Below, piece after piece: positions 11,951-22,417 of a stretch of 64,000 nt of DNA (positions are counted from its first letter, which is position 1; every line of letters begins with the position of its first letter). The stretch lies in NCBI GenBank assembly GCA_026645945.1, contig JAPKMO010000004.1, positions 1-64,000 on the forward strand. Reading direction: 5' to 3'. The position numbers and the translations under genes are program-made. The DNA is from Anaerolineae bacterium. GTDB taxonomy: Bacteria > Chloroflexota > Anaerolineae > Aggregatilineales > Phototrophicaceae. Below the pieces are notes generated by a model. The model did no database searches. It saw only the letters and a program-made list of their open reading frames with translations, and was not told the origin of the DNA.

Positions 11951-12159
11951 CATTTTCCTCAACTTTTTGGTTTTCAGGTGGGACAAAACGGGCTTTATCC
12001 CGGTTAAAAGAACCTTCAATCCTTAGTTTTGAGCATAACATAGGCCCAAAGTATAGACGAGTGATAAAGGTTACTATTGCCCATTGATGAATTGTCAACG
12101 CATTTGTACAACTCGCCGACAAAAATTGCATCGCCTATTGCCGGTAATCGAGTAACATA

Positions 12160-12199: not shown

Positions 12200-12232
12200 G
12201 TAACCGATCAAATGATTGGGTAGGGGGTCGAG

Positions 12233-15200
12233 ATGACGAATCCACAATCAAAGCTTAGGCTTTTATGGCGCGGAGCAGACGGCCAGGCGCTCATCGAGTA
12301 TGCGCTGATTCTGGTGCTGGTGGCGATGGCGCTGCTGGCCGCGCTGCTGGCGACCGGGCCAGCAATTGCCAACGTCTTCAGTAACACCGTCTGTAACCTG
12401 GTCGGCCTGGAGGACTGCAACCCGGATAGTCTGGCAGACCGGGGCGGCGGGCCGGAAAGCTTCTGGGAAACGGTCACGGCGGTCGCGTTAAACCCGCCTA
12501 AAGAAGAGCCAATCCCGACCAACAAGCCATTCCCGACTAAACCCATCCCCACCGATGGCCCATCGCCAACGCCGACGCCCGAAACGCCGACGGCGACCTT
12601 CCCTCCAACGGCCACCGACAAACCGACCAATACGCCGGAAGACTTCGGCCACAGCATCCCGTTCATAGACCCGATTGATCGCCCTGAGTGGTGGCGCGTG
12701 GACAGCAGCATCTTCCTGGGCGGCGAGGACTGGTGGGGCGAGTATTACCCCAACAAAGACCTCTCCGGCGTAGCCGATGACCAGATGTGGAATTACCAGC
12801 TCACCCCCGATAAAATTCACAAGTTCAATATCAACTTCGATTGGGGCGCGGGCGGGCCGATCTCCGGCTGGCTAACGGACAACTTCTCCGTCCGCTGGAC
12901 ACGGACAATTTATGTCTCCGGGACAGAGAACATCACCCTGACGGCCACCATCACTTCAATCGGCGGCGTGCGATTCTGGGTGGATTCCGACCTTAAACTC
13001 AACGACTGGTCGAACCGGACGTTCAACAGCACCCCCCTGGTAACTACCTTCACGCTCACCCCCGGCACGCATCAGTTCAAACTCGAATATTATGTCGGCA
13101 CGGGTAATGCCGCTGTTTTCCTGGACATCAACCAGTATAAAGGCAACGTCCGCGATGATGCGAACCTGGCTTCCGGCACCCCCAACTGCCAGTGGACGCG
13201 CATCAACGGCAGCCAGCCGAATACGGTCGCCTGGGCCTGGAAAGAAAGCCCCGGCGGCACCGGCAGCGGTTTCCCGGCCAACATGCGCTGCAACCTGGAA
13301 CTGCGCGGTTACGTGTTCCTGGATACCGCCAAGCAGTCCACGCCCAAGATGACCTTCTGGGATGTCTGGGACCTAGGCGGCAGCGGCTCGGTAACGCTGC
13401 AAATCGCGGAATACGCGCCTTATGTTTATCTACCGGATGGAACGGTTGACCCCAGCAGCGGCCCGAACTGGGCGGCTGGCACTTCGATTCTGCTGCGTAA
13501 CGGCGGCAGGAACTACGCCTGGACGCGCAATTTCGTGGACATCCCGGCCAGCTACTATAACAAAAACATCTCTTACCGCTTTGTCCTGCAAAGCGGGGGC
13601 GGCAGCGGCACGCGGCGCTGGTATCTGGACGACATCGCCATCCTGAACATGCCCACGCGCGACTTTAGCGTTTGTACCGGCAGTCTGGCGTCGTGCGGCA
13701 ATTACTGGCATCTCGATAACGACGGCCAGAAAGGTGATTTCATCACCTCCGGGCGCTGGGCGCTGACGACCACCAACCGCCAGGGCAGCACTGGCAGCGC
13801 CTGGGATTCCAGCGGTGGTTCGTCCTATGTGCGTTTTGGGCCGGAGCAGCCGTCCGGCCAGGCCGACGATAACCGCATTTACTCCATCGAGTTTAACGGC
13901 CAGGTGGTCTTCCAGAACATTGATGAAAACGGCCTGGGCGGCATCCCCGACTGGGAAGGCAACGATGGCACCCCGCTGCTCCGTTTTTATCATGCCTACG
14001 ACATCGAATCCGGCACCTCACTGGAAGTCCAGTACACCCGTGACCCGATCGGCACGACGCCGGCCAACTGGCAAACCGTCCGCTCACTGGTAAGCGGCGC
14101 CGCCACCGATCTGAGCATGAAGCAGGTCGAAATAGACCTCAGCACCATACCAAACTGGTGGCAGTCGCCGTTCCGGCTCCGGTTTGCCATGAAAGTGAAC
14201 AACAGCCGCACCCCGGCTAAACCCGGCTGGTGGATAGACAGCATCGTGTTCGCCCGCAAAGGGGTCGCGCGGTTCAGCGAATATCCATTCTGCGATAGCG
14301 CCGAAACCGGTATGGATAACTGGCTGACCGCCGGCGGCTGGGAAAACAGCGCCCAGCCGGGCGTGTTCGGCAGCTCACGCGCCTTCACCGACAGCCCGCT
14401 GGGCAACTATCCGCACGGCCAGGAAACCTGGATAGAACTGCGTTATCCGATTGACTTCAACAACGATACGCCGGAAAACCTGACCGTCTGGGGCGGCAAC
14501 AAAGACTGCCTGAACAAAAACCCGTCCGGCGCTGCTGTCCGCCCAATCCTTACCTTCTGGCATTGGCGCGATCTGGCAGCCAACGAGTCCTTCTATGTGG
14601 ATGTCATGCGGCCTGCCCACACCGACTCCGGAACGGCGCGGATCAACTGGACGCCGGTCTGGGCTTACACCTACAACAGCGTCAACCGGGCGCAGTTGGC
14701 CTGGGAACGGGTCGAAATAGACATGGAAAGGGGCATCCTGGAGGCCATCAGGACGAGTACCGGCGTCACTATGGATTGGAACACCCTCAAAACCAACGGC
14801 AATCCCTACGACGACGACTTCTACTTCCGAATCCGCCTGGATGCGCGCTCGAATACCGCCACTGCCGACGGCATCTACATAGATAACATAGACCTCGGCA
14901 ACTACTACGAGTTTTCTCACCGCCTGTGGGACCTCTCTAAAGGCGGCGACGGCGCGCGCCTTGTGGACAACATTGATACCCCGGCGGAGTGGTGGACACG
15001 CTGGCGCAACGGCGGCGCGTGGTCAACGACAAACAGCGACAACTGGCAAATTCCTGACCCGCCGATGCCTTACTGGTGGAAAGCGCGCAGCGGCTTCGCG
15101 GCCTTCCACGACAGCCCGCCGCCCACCACAAGCGACCCCTACGACACGTACTACCGGCACGCTACTTTCTCCGTGCTGGAGATGACCCGAATCATTGACC

Positions 15201-16690
15201 TGACCGGCGCGCTGGCTTCCGACCAGCCCACCCTGTACTTCTGGAATCACTACAGTGTCGGCTCCAGAGACAAAATTCGGGTCGAAGTCGCCGTCGAAGA
15301 CCCATCGCGCACCCGCACCGGCTACGAGTACATTTACGGCTGGGGGTCGGACAAATCCTATGCTTCGCCGAACTACTCGTCCTGGCAGGATATCTGGAGC
15401 AAGGGCGAGTTCGCCCGCGTGGATACCTGGGTGCGCGAGCAGGTTGACCTGTCAGAGTTTGCCGGCAAACGCATTCGCCTCCGATTTGTGATGAACGCGC
15501 TCGAAGGCTCCAGCAGCCTGCGAGACGGCTGGTACATTGACGACGTTCGGATCGAACACAAATCCACGCGTATCATGCCCTTCCCATTCTTCGACGCGGC
15601 GGCCAATACCCAGAACTGGATCACCGAAGGTCTGTGGGGGCTGGCGCCTGACCTGTGGAAAGGCAGCGGCGGCGGCCCGGCCAACCTCGGCCCGGACACC
15701 TGGAAGGGCTACTTCATGAAGTGTACCAACACTTCCGGCACGGTTGTGAGCTGCTCGGTCAACAAAAACCCGTCCAACGCGAATAACTTCCTGAACCGGC
15801 TGACGCCGACGGTCGCGGCCATGAATGCCTATGTGGCCGCCAACCCGACCAAGGCGCTGCCAATGTACGAGTCCAACGATATTATCTTCGACTTCGGCAC
15901 GACCGGCCGGCCGCCGGGTGCGCCGCTCGGTTCGGCAGGTAGCGACTGGGATAACCAGTATGTCGGGCGCTGGATTCGCCAGATCAGCGTGCTGTCGGGC
16001 GAATATCTCTTCGCCACCACTTCCGACGACGGCGTGCGGATGCGCTACGAACCGGCGGACACGCCAGACATCACACCACCCTATGACTGGAATATCCTCA
16101 ACTACTGGAAAGATACGTCTCGCACCGTCCAATACAAGGTCGTCACACTGAACGAAGGCAGCTACAATGTCGTCCTGGAGTGGTACGAAGCCAGCGGCGA
16201 TGCGGCGATCATCCTGCAAGCCGGCAACAACAACTTCTCCTTCAGCGACAGCCCGCGCGCAAACCTGCTCAGCGATGCCGTGCCATCGGTGGCTTACGGC
16301 AACTCGTCGCTCCTGCTGGACGGCGTGCTGAACCTGAACCGCCCCAGCGGCCTGCCGTCCTCGCTGTGGCTGCCCAAACTCAGCTACTATACCTACTGGC
16401 AGCTTGGCAGCAGCAACTCGGCCAATGTTGAGGTTTCCATTGACGGCGGCCTGAGCTGGACTCAGAGCAACCTGAGCAACAACTGCCCGTCCGGCGCGAC
16501 ATGCAGCCCGACCATCACCGGTTGGAGCGACCGCCTGCCGCCCAACGACTGGCAGTGGCGCGTGCATGATCTTCGCACCTATGGCAACCGGCCAGGTACG
16601 AGCAATTTCATCGGGCTGCGCTTCCGGTTGAACACCGGCAGCAGCATCCGTGACGGGTGGTGGATCACGGAAATCAGCGTCAACAACTAA
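12233..16690 (+). CDS. Giant exported protein with Flp-type prepilin N-terminus, PA14 and jelly-roll modules
   Basis: 1485 residues. The N-terminus reads as a Flp/type-IVb prepilin: short basic leader, Gly17, then QALIEYALILVLVAM with Glu at +5 and a long hydrophobic helix to about residue 45, so prepilin-peptidase cleavage after Gly17 is likely. Flp pilins normally end near residue 60. Here a Pro/Thr stalk (about 85-145) leads to a PA14-like domain (about 165-300), five beta-rich modules ending in W(Y/W)(I/L)D(D/S)I-type motifs (near 465, 672, 885, 1103 and 1480) and a second PA14-like domain (about 1237-1327). PA14 and MAM-like folds bind glycans. Probably a surface adhesin or minor pilin tip; no assembly genes lie nearby. 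Confidence 0.8.
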   Translation: MTNPQSKLRLLWRGADGQALIEYALILVLVAMALLAALLATGPAIANVFSNTVCNLVGLEDCNPDSLADRGGGPESFWETVTAVALNPPKEEPIPTNKPFPTKPIPTDGPSPTPTPETPTATFPPTATDKPTNTPEDFGHSIPFIDPIDRPEWWRVDSSIFLGGEDWWGEYYPNKDLSGVADDQMWNYQLTPDKIHKFNINFDWGAGGPISGWLTDNFSVRWTRTIYVSGTENITLTATITSIGGVRFWVDSDLKLNDWSNRTFNSTPLVTTFTLTPGTHQFKLEYYVGTGNAAVFLDINQYKGNVRDDANLASGTPNCQWTRINGSQPNTVAWAWKESPGGTGSGFPANMRCNLELRGYVFLDTAKQSTPKMTFWDVWDLGGSGSVTLQIAEYAPYVYLPDGTVDPSSGPNWAAGTSILLRNGGRNYAWTRNFVDIPASYYNKNISYRFVLQSGGGSGTRRWYLDDIAILNMPTRDFSVCTGSLASCGNYWHLDNDGQKGDFITSGRWALTTTNRQGSTGSAWDSSGGSSYVRFGPEQPSGQADDNRIYSIEFNGQVVFQNIDENGLGGIPDWEGNDGTPLLRFYHAYDIESGTSLEVQYTRDPIGTTPANWQTVRSLVSGAATDLSMKQVEIDLSTIPNWWQSPFRLRFAMKVNNSRTPAKPGWWIDSIVFARKGVARFSEYPFCDSAETGMDNWLTAGGWENSAQPGVFGSSRAFTDSPLGNYPHGQETWIELRYPIDFNNDTPENLTVWGGNKDCLNKNPSGAAVRPILTFWHWRDLAANESFYVDVMRPAHTDSGTARINWTPVWAYTYNSVNRAQLAWERVEIDMERGILEAIRTSTGVTMDWNTLKTNGNPYDDDFYFRIRLDARSNTATADGIYIDNIDLGNYYEFSHRLWDLSKGGDGARLVDNIDTPAEWWTRWRNGGAWSTTNSDNWQIPDPPMPYWWKARSGFAAFHDSPPPTTSDPYDTYYRHATFSVLEMTRIIDLTGALASDQPTLYFWNHYSVGSRDKIRVEVAVEDPSRTRTGYEYIYGWGSDKSYASPNYSSWQDIWSKGEFARVDTWVREQVDLSEFAGKRIRLRFVMNALEGSSSLRDGWYIDDVRIEHKSTRIMPFPFFDAAANTQNWITEGLWGLAPDLWKGSGGGPANLGPDTWKGYFMKCTNTSGTVVSCSVNKNPSNANNFLNRLTPTVAAMNAYVAANPTKALPMYESNDIIFDFGTTGRPPGAPLGSAGSDWDNQYVGRWIRQISVLSGEYLFATTSDDGVRMRYEPADTPDITPPYDWNILNYWKDTSRTVQYKVVTLNEGSYNVVLEWYEASGDAAIILQAGNNNFSFSDSPRANLLSDAVPSVAYGNSSLLLDGVLNLNRPSGLPSSLWLPKLSYYTYWQLGSSNSANVEVSIDGGLSWTQSNLSNNCPSGATCSPTITGWSDRLPPNDWQWRVHDLRTYGNRPGTSNFIGLRFRLNTGSSIRDGWWITEISVNN

Positions 16691-16836: not shown

Positions 16837-17859
16837 ATGATTACCACTTCACAAAGACGCCAGGGGCTTCTGTTCGTGCTGGTCGGGCCGGCGGGAGCAG
16901 GCAAAAACGAGGTTATGAAACGGGTGCTGCCGCGCCTCACCAACCTGCGCCAGCTTCCAACGGCGACCACACGTCCCAGGCGCCCTAACGAACAGCACGG
17001 GCGCGAGCATCTGTTCGTCTCCCACCCCGAATTTCAGAAATTGATTGAAAACAACGCCCTCATCGAGTGGCAAAAGGTTCACGGTGAACTGTATGGGATG
17101 CCGCGCGCCACCGTCGAAGAGGCGATTGCCGGCGAAGAAGATTTGGTCGCCGATATTGATGTGTTGGGGGCAACTTACCTGCGCTCGCTTTACCCGGACA
17201 ATTCGGTGCTGATTTTTATCCAGCCCCCCTCGCTCGATGACCTCAAAAAGCGCATGGCGACGCGCGGCGAGCCGCCGGAAGAAATCGCCAAACGGCTGCG
17301 CCGGGTGGACATGGAAATGCAGTACGCGCCGTTGTGCGATTATCTCATCATCAACGAAGACGAAAAACTTGACGAAGCCGCCGAAATTTTATACGCCATC
17401 GTGCTGGCGGAGCGCAGCCGCAAGGCGCTGCTGAATCTGCGTGTTGAGCGCGATCTGCCGCGCCACAAATTCACTTATGCGACGATGGCGATTCCGGTGT
17501 TTGATAACGAAGTTTTGTGCCGCGACCATCAGCCGCATTTTCCCACCAGCCACCTGGCTCATGGCGAGTTTCCGCACGAAGCCGCACTGCGCGCGCTCGG
17601 CCAGGACATCGGCATCGTGCCGTCGGTTGCTGATCTTTCCAAAGCGCCGTCCGACTCCTTCATCCTGCCGGTGACGATGGATACCTTCGTCCAGGAACAC
17701 GCGCGGCAGGTGTTGTTCATCTATCTCTATACCCTGCCGGAACGTATTATTCCGCCGGAAGGCTGGCAGTGGACACCCTACCAGCAGGCTGCCCTGCCCC
17801 GGCCTGTACTGGAAATGTTCAACGACCAGAAAACGCTCGCCCCGGAAGGCGCTTCTTAA
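16837..17859 (+). CDS. Guanylate-kinase-like protein fused to a NUDIX-like domain
   Basis: 340 residues. Residues 10-195 follow guanylate kinase: P-loop GPAGAGKN (17-24), TATTRPRRPNE, the GMP lid, YGMPRATVEE, ADIDVLGA, FIQPPSLDDLKKRMATRG and the CDYLIIN C-terminus. Gmk usually has Ser or Gly-Thr after the P-loop Lys; here Asn-Glu replaces it, so Mg-ATP binding may be changed. Residues 215-330 look like a NUDIX fold with a decayed box (HGEFPHEAALRALGQDIGI lacks the catalytic Glu pair). It lies 9 bases upstream of ygfZ and forms an operon with it. It could be an active kinase, a nucleotide sensor, or a kinase for another nucleotide. Confidence 0.8.
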   Translation: MITTSQRRQGLLFVLVGPAGAGKNEVMKRVLPRLTNLRQLPTATTRPRRPNEQHGREHLFVSHPEFQKLIENNALIEWQKVHGELYGMPRATVEEAIAGEEDLVADIDVLGATYLRSLYPDNSVLIFIQPPSLDDLKKRMATRGEPPEEIAKRLRRVDMEMQYAPLCDYLIINEDEKLDEAAEILYAIVLAERSRKALLNLRVERDLPRHKFTYATMAIPVFDNEVLCRDHQPHFPTSHLAHGEFPHEAALRALGQDIGIVPSVADLSKAPSDSFILPVTMDTFVQEHARQVLFIYLYTLPERIIPPEGWQWTPYQQAALPRPVLEMFNDQKTLAPEGAS

Positions 17860-19624: not shown

Positions 19625-20437
19625 ATGATGAACTGGCTGAACGAACTCTTTCATGTGGACAAACCAATTATTGCCATGTGCCATCTGAAGGCGCTGCCCG
19701 GCGACCCAGGATATGACGCCCACAAAGGCATGGAATGGATTGTTGAACAGGCGCGGATGGATTTACGCGCCCTGCAGGATGGCGGCGTGGACGCTGTCAT
19801 GTTCTCCAACGAGGCCAGCCTGCCTTATTTGACCAAAGTCGAAACGGTCACGGTGGCCTGCATGGCGCGGGTTATTGCCGAACTGCGCGGCGACATCCGC
19901 GTGCCGTTTGGCGTCAACGTGCTGTGGGACTCGGCCGCCTCGATTGATTTGGCGGTCGCCACTGGCGGGCAGTTCGTGCGCGAGATTTTCACCGGCGTGT
20001 ACGCCAGCGATTATGGCCTTTGGAACACCAACTGCGGCGAAACCATCCGCCACCGGCAGCACGTTCACGGCGAGAATGTGCGGCTGTTTTTTAACATCGT
20101 GCCGGAATCCGCCGTTTATCTGGGCCAGCGCCCGGTTGAAGACATCGCCCGCACGACCGTATTTGTTTCGCAGCCGGATGCGTTGTGTGTCTCCGGCGCG
20201 ACGGCAGGCACGGAAACGCCGCTGGACATACTCAAGCGGGTCAAACAGGCCGTGCCGGATACAGTCGTATTCGCCAATACCGGCGTGCGCCTGTCGAACG
20301 TCGAAGCGATGCTGGACGTGGCCGATGGCGCGATCATCGGCACAACCTTTAAACGCGATGGTTACATCTGGAATGATGTGGACGTAAGCCGCGTGAGCGA
20401 ATTTATGCGGAAGGTGAATAACATTCGTCATGGATAA
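19625..20437 (+). CDS. BtpA/SgcQ-family TIM-barrel protein
   Basis: 270 residues. IAMCHLKALPGDPGYD at the N-terminus, ALQDGGVDAVMFSNE, VPFGVNVLWD, the CVSGATAGTETPLD phosphate-binding region and VFANTGVRLSNVEAML match the BtpA/SgcQ family. The cyanobacterial member helps photosystem I accumulate and SgcQ lies in a sugar operon; the biochemical activity is not known. The two adjacent ATGs (19625, 19628) follow AAGAGGATC. It stands alone between its own promoter and a terminator. Confidence 0.88.
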   Translation: MMNWLNELFHVDKPIIAMCHLKALPGDPGYDAHKGMEWIVEQARMDLRALQDGGVDAVMFSNEASLPYLTKVETVTVACMARVIAELRGDIRVPFGVNVLWDSAASIDLAVATGGQFVREIFTGVYASDYGLWNTNCGETIRHRQHVHGENVRLFFNIVPESAVYLGQRPVEDIARTTVFVSQPDALCVSGATAGTETPLDILKRVKQAVPDTVVFANTGVRLSNVEAMLDVADGAIIGTTFKRDGYIWNDVDVSRVSEFMRKVNNIRHG

Positions 20438-20489
20438 ACGCTGGAAACAGGCGACACTTTTATTTCAACCGCTTCAACAGCCAACCAAA

Positions 20490-20510
20490 AACCCGGCTTA
20501 AAGCCGGGTT
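20490..20510. terminator. Bidirectional terminator between btpA-family gene and tRNA-Leu
   Basis: 8-bp stem AACCCGGC (20490-20497) with GCCGGGTT (20503-20510) and a 5-base loop. It is followed by TTTTTGG on the minus strand, where it ends tRNA-Leu, and by a shorter T-rich run on the plus strand. Confidence 0.8.
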
Positions 20511-20516
20511 TGTTTG

Positions 20517-20600
20517 TGCCGAAGGTGGGAGTCGAACCCACACTCCCTTGCGAGAACTACGCCCTGAACGTAGCGCGTCTGCCAATTCCGCCACTTCGGC
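20517..20600 (-). tRNA. tRNA-Leu (CAG)
   Basis: Acceptor stem GCCGAAG pairs with CTTCGGC. The anticodon stem CTACG/CGTAG encloses loop TTCAGGG with anticodon CAG. The long variable arm (class II) fits leucine, and the T-arm is GTGGG-TTCGACT-CCCAC. CCA is not encoded; the discriminator is A. Confidence 0.96.
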
Positions 20601-20613
20601 AGGAAGTAAGTTT

Positions 20614-20641
20614 ATTCTAGCAAATGCCGGTGGAATGTCAA
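20614..20641 (-). promoter_or_regulatory. Promoter of tRNA-Leu
   Basis: On the minus strand a perfect TTGACA (20641-20636), a 16-base spacer and TAGAAT (20619-20614) end 14 bases before the mature tRNA 5' end. Confidence 0.8.
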
Positions 20642-20666
20642 GCCAGATTTTGGAAAAATTGAGATG

Positions 20667-20675
20667 TGTTATAAT
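20667..20675 (+). promoter_or_regulatory. Extended -10 promoter for the SH3/beta-lactamase-like gene
   Basis: TGT-TATAAT: a perfect -10 with the TGn extension. No good -35 lies at 16-18 bases, as is usual for extended -10 promoters. The start codon lies 60 bases on. Confidence 0.65.
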
Positions 20676-20734
20676 GCGCCGCGCTCGATCATCGGCACGG
20701 AGAAGCTGATGTTGGAGGGACTATACAAAACACA

Positions 20735-22417
20735 ATGAAAAACGCCAGAATCCTTTTTTTACTGCTCCTGCTGGCAATCGCGCTGGGATTTTTTCCCGCC
20801 AGGGCGCAGCGCACCGGGGTTGAGGCAGAAGCCATCGGCCAGGCTAACCTGCGCGCCACCACCGACATAAACTCGACGCTGGTCGGGCAAATCCAGCGCG
20901 GCACGCGCTATCCGGTGATCGGACGCAGCGAATTTTTCCCCTGGCTGCTGCTGGCCGACCCGGCCACCAACCAACCAATCGGCTGGGTTTTCCGCGATCT
21001 GGTGAATGTCTACGGTGATATAAATCAAACGCCGTTCTCGAACCTGGAAATTGGCGCGCCGGCGGTTTCTCCTGCTCCACCATTAAGCACTGCATCGCCG
21101 GGGGCCGTAATAATTACCCCCACCCTACCGGCTGCCACGCCGGTCGCGCAAAGCGGCATAACGGGGCGCGTCACCGGCGAAATCAACATTCGTTATGGGC
21201 CGGGGGTTGATTATCCGCGTATCGGCGTCGCCCGCGTCGGCGACAGTTTCGAAATCACCGGCTGGCACACCCAATTACCCTGGCTGCAAATCCGCTACCC
21301 ATCTGCGCCAAACGGCTTTGGCTGGGTGGCGAAAGATCTGCTCGAAGTTCAGGGCGACGTGTTCACCCTGCCGCCAATCAGCCAGACGCGCTTCGACCTG
21401 CCGACACTGACGCCGACGCAGCCGGTTGTCCAGGCCAGCACCATCTTTAATGCCACGCCGGCGGCCATCAGCCCGGCTTTTCGCGCCCTGGGCGACCAAC
21501 TGTGGGCCATGATGCTGCAAGCCGGCTTCGAGCCGGAAACCAGCCGCCTGGGGGCGCTGTTCCTGCTCGACCTGCAAACCGGTGAGGCCATCACCTTCGG
21601 CAGCCAAATCGCCTTCAGCGGCATGAGCCTGAACAAAATCGCCATCCTGGCGGAACTTTACGGAATTCTAAACCAGCCGCCCAATCTGGCGCAGGCCAAT
21701 ACCATCGCCGGCGCTATGATTTGCAGCGAAAACACCTCCAGCAACGATATGCTCAACATTATCGGCGGCGGTGATGCCTATACCGGCGCGTCGGCAGTCA
21801 CCCGATTCTTACAGGATTTGGAGCTGACCAATACCTTTCTGGTCGCGCCGTTTGTGATTGACCCCCAAAACATCCCGACGCCGCCGTTCCCTGTCGTCGC
21901 GCCCGTCACCAGCGCCGACAAAAATATCACCCAGCCAGACCCCTGGAATCAGGCAACCGTAGATAATCTCGGCTGGCTGCTGGGCAGTATTTATAGCTGC
22001 GCTTACGATGAAAGCGGGCCGCTGCTGGAAAAATTTCCTGGCGCCTACACGCCATCCGAATGTCGCCAGATGTTACATGCCATGAGCAGCAATAAAATTG
22101 GCGCGCTAATCGAAGCCGGCGTGCCGCCGGGAACGCGGGTGGCGCACAAACACGGCTGGATTGCCGATACACATGGCGACGCGGGAATCGTTTTTACGCC
22201 TGGGGGAAATTTCGTCCTGGTTACCATCCTGCACAACCCGACCTGGCTCGATTTTTCCGAGTCTTTCCCCTTGATTGCAGAGATAACGCGCGCCGTTTAT
22301 AACTACTATAATCCCACCGCGCCGCTGGAACAAATCCGCGAGGAACCCGTGCCGGAATGCGACCTGTTCAGCAATCCGCTGATTGATGATCTGATGTCCG
22401 CGTCCTTTGAAGGATAA
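20735..22417 (+). CDS. Exported class-A beta-lactamase-like serine hydrolase with two SH3 domains
   Basis: 560 residues: signal peptide (1-24, cleavage after ARA), SH3-like domain 1 (about 30-95, ANLRATTDINSTLVGQI) and 2 (about 150-215, INIRYGPGVDYPRIG), then a penicillin-recognising catalytic domain. Active-site motifs: S298-L-N-K301, S335-S336-N337 in place of SDN, and K472-H-G474 in place of KTG. The architecture suggests a wall-bound hydrolase or sensor acting on peptidoglycan-like substrates. The KHG variant and the SH3 targeting argue against a simple secreted beta-lactamase. GGAGG lies about 14 bases before the ATG, slightly far. Confidence 0.85.
   Translation: MKNARILFLLLLLAIALGFFPARAQRTGVEAEAIGQANLRATTDINSTLVGQIQRGTRYPVIGRSEFFPWLLLADPATNQPIGWVFRDLVNVYGDINQTPFSNLEIGAPAVSPAPPLSTASPGAVIITPTLPAATPVAQSGITGRVTGEINIRYGPGVDYPRIGVARVGDSFEITGWHTQLPWLQIRYPSAPNGFGWVAKDLLEVQGDVFTLPPISQTRFDLPTLTPTQPVVQASTIFNATPAAISPAFRALGDQLWAMMLQAGFEPETSRLGALFLLDLQTGEAITFGSQIAFSGMSLNKIAILAELYGILNQPPNLAQANTIAGAMICSENTSSNDMLNIIGGGDAYTGASAVTRFLQDLELTNTFLVAPFVIDPQNIPTPPFPVVAPVTSADKNITQPDPWNQATVDNLGWLLGSIYSCAYDESGPLLEKFPGAYTPSECRQMLHAMSSNKIGALIEAGVPPGTRVAHKHGWIADTHGDAGIVFTPGGNFVLVTILHNPTWLDFSESFPLIAEITRAVYNYYNPTAPLEQIREEPVPECDLFSNPLIDDLMSASFEG

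Follow-up and report, generated by a model that had tools for sequence, protein, structure and literature searches.

A family of giant Flp-headed proteins with PA14/MAM-like ectodomains in an order of Chloroflexota: probable modular Tad pilins

Introduction

Modular pilins form a well-recognised class (PMC8179133, PMC10191384), whose survey was limited to proteins with the IPR012902 head and quoted an extreme of 860 residues (PMC8179133). Flp pilins have been characterised as short type IV pilins that are entirely helical (PMC12075869), and the large modules described in Tad systems are borne on heads of the TadE/F/G type (PMC12607857, PMC12075869); Tad pili have also been seen in Chloroflexota (PMC13319060). 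Here we describe a 1485-residue protein, hereafter the giant, encoded by an open reading frame (ORF) in the first 64,000 nucleotides of contig JAPKMO010000004.1 from an Anaerolineae bacterium of the order Aggregatilineales (assembly GCA_026645945.1), this whole stretch being termed the window. It joins a Flp pilin head by a tether of conserved length to PA14 and MAM-like domains, is linked to the Tad system at the level of the genome, and has relatives in which the Flp head is exchanged for a TadE head. We consider it probable that the giant is a modular Tad (type IVc) pilin, whose role on the pilus would be to display an ectodomain that binds ligands and is probably adhesive.

Searches of open-licence papers brought up no description of a Flp pilin fused with PA14 or with such an ectodomain, nor of a modular pilin from Chloroflexota. 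What is new here is an order-wide family of Flp-headed modular pilins of 970–2,000 residues, most of them above 1,200; modular pilins themselves are known. An earlier note, made from the sequence of the window, had suggested a new way to anchor a large extracellular protein, which is overstated given that modular pilins were already established (PMC8179133).

The N-terminal head is a Flp pilin

The ORF and the elements of its head are as follows.

12233–16690, + strand: ORF of 1485 codons (1485 amino acids), with the ATG at 12233 and the stop codon ending at 16690
12233–12283, + strand: class III (prepilin) leader, residues 1–17, ending in Gly17 (MTNPQSKLRLLWRGADG)
12284–12403, + strand: Flp pilin helix, residues 18–57 (QALIEYALILVLVAMALLAALLATGPAIANVFSNTVCNLV), a single predicted helix matched by the hidden Markov model (HMM) of plain Flp pilins
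12452–12490, + strand: short conserved helix, residues 74–86, with the motif FWxTV; a helix in the structural model

The location and length of the ORF agree with those reported in the earlier note, and so does the class III signal that it had read from Gly17, a Glu at +5 and a long helix. The protein starts with MTNPQSKLRLLWRGADG, followed beyond the predicted cleavage site by QALIEYALILVLVAMALLAALLATGPAIANVFSNTVCNLV, thus presenting both the Gly/Ala leader end and the hydrophobic helix with Glu at +5 that mark Flp/Fap pilins; cleavage at Gly17 would leave a mature protein of 1468 residues (163.7 kDa, pI 4.8). Across 27 homologues, Gly17, Gln18, Glu22, Tyr23, Leu25, Thr41 and Phe49 are invariant, as are Phe77, Trp78, Thr80 and Val81 of the FWxTV motif. 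An AlphaFold2 model of residues 1–480, computed from 27 sequences (mean predicted local distance difference test (pLDDT) score 73), places the start of helix 18–57 exactly at the predicted cleavage site, and this helix is followed by helix 74–86, the mostly disordered linker and a PA14 domain.

An HMM of plain Chloroflexota Flp pilins, trained on pilins of the same class among which a few TadE-like sequences had also entered, recovers the ORF with an E-value of 5.1e-15, as against 2.7 for the runner-up among the 682 reading-frame segments of the window. A chance likeness to a pilin was ruled out by this test together with the homologues recruited without the head (see below). The Pfam Flp_Fap model (PF04964) matches residues 21–51 (E 3.2e-4; 8e-5 using a 480-residue piece) at 20.9–26.8 bits, under its curated cut-off of 32.2, which is also missed by both of the short plain Flps tested from the same genome (26.8 and 17.4 bits). 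Since no Flp_Fap match anywhere in the genome, plain short Flps included, reaches the cut-off, this test separates poorly here. The head corresponds over its full length to a Flp pilin and is more than a mere signal. The whole protein, however, is not a plain Flp pilin, which would have about 50–80 residues and be fully helical, as opposed to 1485 residues that are mostly β. Instead, it has the layout of a modular type IV pilin, with an N-terminal pilin module, a linker and extra modules that are not specific to pilus biology.

Anatomy of the tether and the ectodomain

Downstream of the short helix, the following regions were delineated.

12494–12640, + strand: Pro/Thr-rich linker, residues 88–136; of its 49 residues, 17 are Pro and 12 are Thr; pLDDT mostly below 50
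12644–13150, + strand: PA14 domain 1 (PA14-1), residues about 138–306; PF07691, E 4.9e-8, 33.3 bits against a cut-off of 24
13151–13666, + strand: MAM-like jelly-roll module 1, residues about 307–478; Z 13.5 to meprin MAM over 151 residues, root-mean-square deviation (rmsd) 3.0
13667–14281, + strand: MAM-like module 2, residues about 479–683, from the model; GWWIDSI signature at 665
14282–14938, + strand: MAM-like module 3, residues about 684–902, from the model; GIYIDNI signature at 880
14939–15592, + strand: MAM-like module 4, residues about 903–1120; PF20773 (InhA-like_MAM) over its cut-off at 1060–1114, GWYIDDV at 1099
15593–16687, + strand: MAM-like module 5, residues about 1121–1485, split by PA14 domain 2; GWWITEI at 1475, profile match to modules 1–4
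15692–16234, + strand: PA14 domain 2 (PA14-2), residues about 1154–1334, within module 5; Z 12.9 to 6m8m, the sugar-binding PA14 of an RTX adhesin, over 146 residues, rmsd 3.1

The linker is 46–50 residues long in 26 of the 27 homologues, and exactly 47 in most; because this length is conserved although the segment is of low complexity, it points to a possible constraint on reach. The two PA14-like domains and five similar modules perceived in the earlier note are both recovered. PA14-1 exceeds the PF07691 cut-off and superposes on the PA14 domain of RsgI3 (6qe7) with a Z-score of 16.3 (rmsd 1.9 over 122 residues), while PA14-2 is recognised in this protein by fold only, and by Pfam in some of the homologues. 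The five jelly-rolls in the model of residues 300–1485 (mean pLDDT 82.6, predicted template modelling score 0.65) resemble meprin MAM domains (Z 13–15) and reelin repeats, and profile comparison finds all ten pairs of the five modules to be homologous (probability 96–99%).

At the aligned position of the DD (DcisD) motif, which we take to be the calcium site of calcium-dependent PA14 lectins, PA14-1 reads SIGGVRF, with IG in place of DD, and PA14-2 reads SDDGVRM, the DD being retained in most homologues that cover the domain. On account of this loss in PA14-1 and retention in PA14-2, the latter would be the better lectin candidate. Frames with several PA14-like repeats resembling PA14-1 also occur on another contig of the genome (C192; L009/L010/L016).

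Phyletic spread and conservation of the family

Homologues were recruited with a head-free alignment whose sole pattern lies in jelly-roll module 1; the whole protein was not used as the query, since its Flp head would draw in plain pilins. All 26 loci recruited in this way nevertheless bear the Flp head. They are nearly all titled as metagenome-assembled genomes of Anaerolineae or Chloroflexi, with one titled Aggregatilineales and one Bacteroidetes, the last of which must be mislabelled. Within the order, 103 of 151 genomes, spread over 50 of 61 genera, match the protein at an E-value of 1e-10 or better, and in about 84 of these the listed match extends into the head. Further, ten of eleven additional loci from distant families carry the Flp head, and the eleventh a TadE head. 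No Sec or lipoprotein signal replaces the pilin head in the homologues examined. Hence, the homologues with a normal Sec signal at this place, which the earlier note had named as evidence that would speak against its reading, did not turn up, the departure from the Flp head being the TadE head of one genus. In a search of 301 genomes drawn across the phylum, with one genome sample per rank defining the family boundary, those outside the order yielded Flp alone or PA14 alone and no fusion of the two.

Association with the Tad system

The genome encodes a Tad set comprising TadA, TadB, TadC, CpaB, TadE, Flp and a prepilin peptidase. One contig (C55) carries CpaB, a CpaE-like ATPase with a receiver domain, TadA, TadB and TadC; a second (C230) carries two TadE-headed proteins and a TadG-like vWA protein; and short Flp pilins are found on C75, with more short Flp hits on C42 and C44. 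A prepilin peptidase is represented by its C-terminal part on C117, where the contig end cuts the gene, and a full-length version scores over cut-off in 20 of the 20 relatives searched; the absence of any such peptidase, which the earlier note had regarded as fatal to its proposal, is therefore not what the genome presents. Its statement that tad/flp assembly genes are missing from the window holds for the contig as well, on which no hit to T2SSF, Peptidase_A24 or TadE, and none to Flp_Fap beyond the head of the ORF, was obtained.

Across the 151 genomes of the order, the giant and TadC are both present in 102, TadC alone in 9, the giant alone in 1 (a genome that is 78% complete) and neither in 39 (Fisher p 2.9e-26). 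Counting only the matches that reach the head, the same classes number 83, 28, 1 and 39 (p 8e-17). The listed genomes of one genus, g6, lack both, except for G135, which has both. Three other genomes of this genus (G039, G058 and G063) have one Flp_Fap match each (E about 1e-5), with TadC not found.

In family f4, two genomes, G004 and G012, encode frames of 1848 and 1941 residues that start with a TadE-type head (PF07811, E 4.6e-12 in G004).

L192:5774–11317, − strand: TadE-headed PA14/MAM protein of family f4, with a TadG-like gene nearby
L199:1233–7055, + strand: TadE-headed PA14/MAM protein of family f4

The body of the G004 protein is collinear with residues 126–1483 of the giant (28% identity, E 2e-108), and the G012 match spans residues 124–1483. 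The same ectodomain is thus borne by two classes of Tad pilin, be it as an orthologue with a swapped head or through a separate fusion. This swap is regarded as the best single argument that the head provides Tad-pilus display rather than general membrane anchoring.

Other pilin-headed proteins of the genome also exceed the usual dimensions. An unrelated Flp-headed protein of 795 residues (C206; L024:5758–8145) combines the Flp module with a PT-repeat linker and malectin-like, Ig-like and laminin-G-like domains; two congeners have orthologues of it, and frames of 438–910 residues in other genera match it with the head included. As it occurs in the same genome as the giant, the Flp-plus-ectodomain architecture recurs. 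With a 149-residue Flp-headed protein that has a C-terminal domain of ~90 residues (L028:1671–2120, − strand), the Flp-headed proteins of the genome form a graded series of 48–67, 149, 795 and 1485 residues. The minor pilins are also oversized: L157:2029–8130 (− strand) encodes, in a row, a TadE-headed frame of 787 residues with Pro/Thr-rich tracts, a TadG-like vWA frame of 873 residues and a TadE-headed frame of 382 residues.

Genomic locus and upstream element

The gene order amidohydrolase–folD, giant, gmk-like, gcvT-like, divIC is kept in most sufficiently long loci, down to 30% identity of the giant. At 25–26% identity folD and gmk still flank it, and families f3, f6 and f8 share the folD locus. 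The gene is old and apparently vertically inherited, and it sits outside the tad loci. Three features precede it.

12089–12128, + strand: conserved upstream element GAATTGTCAACGCATTTGTACAACTCGCCGACAAAAATTG (inverted TTGT...ACAA and a second ACAA), present in 27 of the 27 loci examined, degenerate in a few
12153–12158, + strand: TAACAT, −10-like box and putative promoter component, at the same spacing in most aligned upstream regions
12218–12227, + strand: likely ribosome-binding site GGGTAGGGGG, purine-rich, read off the sequence at 5 bases ahead of the start codon

The element takes the form TTGTCAACGCATTTGTACAAC...ACAAAA, followed by the −10-like TAACAT. Its core pattern is single-copy in this genome and has 35 matches in 34 of the 151 genomes. 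Of these matches, 34 sit 140–275 bp ahead of the Gly(−1) codon of the giant; the remaining one is close to a contig end, on a second contig of a genome that also has a regular copy. The element was not seen in the tad loci scanned. Its assignment to folD rather than to the giant is disfavoured, as none of the 48 giant-less genomes, in which the position of folD was not located, carries the core. An Rfam scan of the 5′ region gave only sub-threshold chance matches, and scans for sigma-70 promoters and terminators gave no excess over shuffled sequences.

Beside the giant, 16837–17859 of the window encodes a guanylate kinase that is conserved as its neighbour and whose C-terminal stretch has a weak match to NUDIX (E 0.0018, under the cut-off). 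Further along, at about 20000–22000, the GC skew passes from negative to positive (cumulative minimum), as would be seen close to a replication origin or at a strand switch.

Functional interpretation and alternatives

From known pilin biology we infer how the giant might be cleaved and incorporated into the pilus, where between tip and shaft it might sit and what it might bind. The prepilin would be inserted via Sec with its leader inside, whereupon the prepilin peptidase of the genome would cut after Gly17, and the 40-residue Flp helix, with Glu5 of the mature protein kept, would be pulled by TadA/TadB/TadC into the Flp filament. The Pro/Thr tether of fixed length would hold the PA14/MAM ectodomain of ~1,350 residues free of the filament and exposed on the exterior of the cell, able to bind glycan or protein ligands there, probably for cell–cell or cell–surface adhesion. 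The PA14 and MAM folds are common among ligand-binding surface proteins, and the nearest solved PA14s include sugar-binding ones. Judging from the domain type, adhesion within aggregates would be the likeliest role. Of the pilus-borne adhesin envisaged in the earlier note, the pilus-borne part is supported by the tight co-occurrence with TadC, whereas the adhesin part is inferred from the type of domain. Additionally, since the head has the complete Flp module with Glu5, and is not of the tip-type TadE/G, and the tether length is fixed, it is conceivable, if rather doubtful, that the giant could enter the filament at any point along its length. Tad pili in this order may then be side-decorated adhesive cables with arms of ~160 kDa, their dose set by a dedicated promoter, as against thin fibres sticky only at the tip.

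Several considerations weigh against the interpretation as a modular Tad pilin. A class III signal is by itself no proof of pilus incorporation, and the gene is found among housekeeping genes rather than with the tad loci and has an upstream element of its own. Nine TadC-positive genomes have no match to the giant, which is therefore not essential to the pilus. Most of the listed double negatives come from a single genus (g6), such that the co-occurrence is partly phylogenetic and the p-values overstate independence. PA14-1 is without the DD motif seen in PA14 lectins, and the case as a whole is computational.

The lack of linkage to tad genes and the separate upstream element would also suit a surface protein for which class III signal and prepilin peptidase provide only insertion and trimming, with the Flp helix, which at ~40 residues is long enough to span the membrane, serving as an anchor that is never polymerised; besides, packing so large an ectodomain along a filament would be difficult. 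We nonetheless hold this to be unlikely, as a plain anchor needs no invariant Gly(−1), Glu5, Tyr6, T41 and F49, and it would leave unexplained both the strict co-occurrence with TadC and the exchange of the head for another class of Tad pilin. That the same body also occurs with a TadE head, and that large modular Tad minor pilins have been modelled at tips (PMC12075869, PMC12607857), could instead be taken to mean that the giant is a tip initiator, one copy of which primes each pilus in place of, or atop, the TadE/TadG tip complex, without decorating the shaft or acting as an accessory adhesin. This is improbable, however, given the Flp-type head with Glu5 and the separate TadE and TadG-like genes of the genome; the nine Tad-positive genomes without the giant further indicate that priming cannot generally depend on it. 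As for an ordinary Sec-exported protein or lipoprotein with a hydrophobic start that is pilin-like by chance, such ectodomains are often found on Sec-secreted proteins, but the gap between the HMM match and the best other segment of the window, along with the head kept in 26 of 26 homologues, makes this extremely improbable. A modular Tad pilin that displays its ectodomain on the pilus is therefore the explanation we favour.

Comparison with known systems

A Flp pilin that carries up to ~2,000 residues and is kept order-wide suggests that Tad filaments can be functionalised through the Flp-type subunit itself, and the swap of the ectodomain between Flp and TadE heads suggests selection for Tad-pilus display. 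The family is also a candidate for how filamentous, aggregate-forming Chloroflexota cling together in flocs, mats and sludge; no description of an adhesin of this kind in Chloroflexota was found in the literature searched.

With respect to the PA14 domains, both folds are shared with the RTX adhesin/MpAFP PA14 (6m8m, 5j6y) and the RsgI3 PA14 (6qe7) at Z-scores of 12–16; in contrast to these, the PA14s of the giant are carried on a pilin, the first without and the second with the DD motif. The Kil system of Myxococcus (PMC12075869) offers a parallel in that its Tad pili are customised by minor pilins, with the Flp-type minor pilins KilK and KilO placed next to the tip. However, KilK and KilO are small all-helical adapters without an ectodomain, and the large Kil Tip subunits are TadE/F/G-like. 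The tip pilins CpaL of Caulobacter and TadG (PMC12607857) likewise join a Tad pilin-like head to a large extracellular module, for which a role in surface contact has been proposed. Yet CpaL is a TadG orthologue of about 626 residues with a vWA domain, whereas the giant has a Flp head and PA14/MAM modules, with no vWA found, and coexists with separate TadE/TadG-like genes. PilB and PilC of Streptococcus sanguinis (PMC8179133, PMC9934059) similarly combine a small pilin with a bulky ligand-binding module that the filament displays, behind a class III signal with Glu5; these are type IVa pilins, mature PilB having 454 residues, while the protein described here has 1485 and a Tad-type Flp head.

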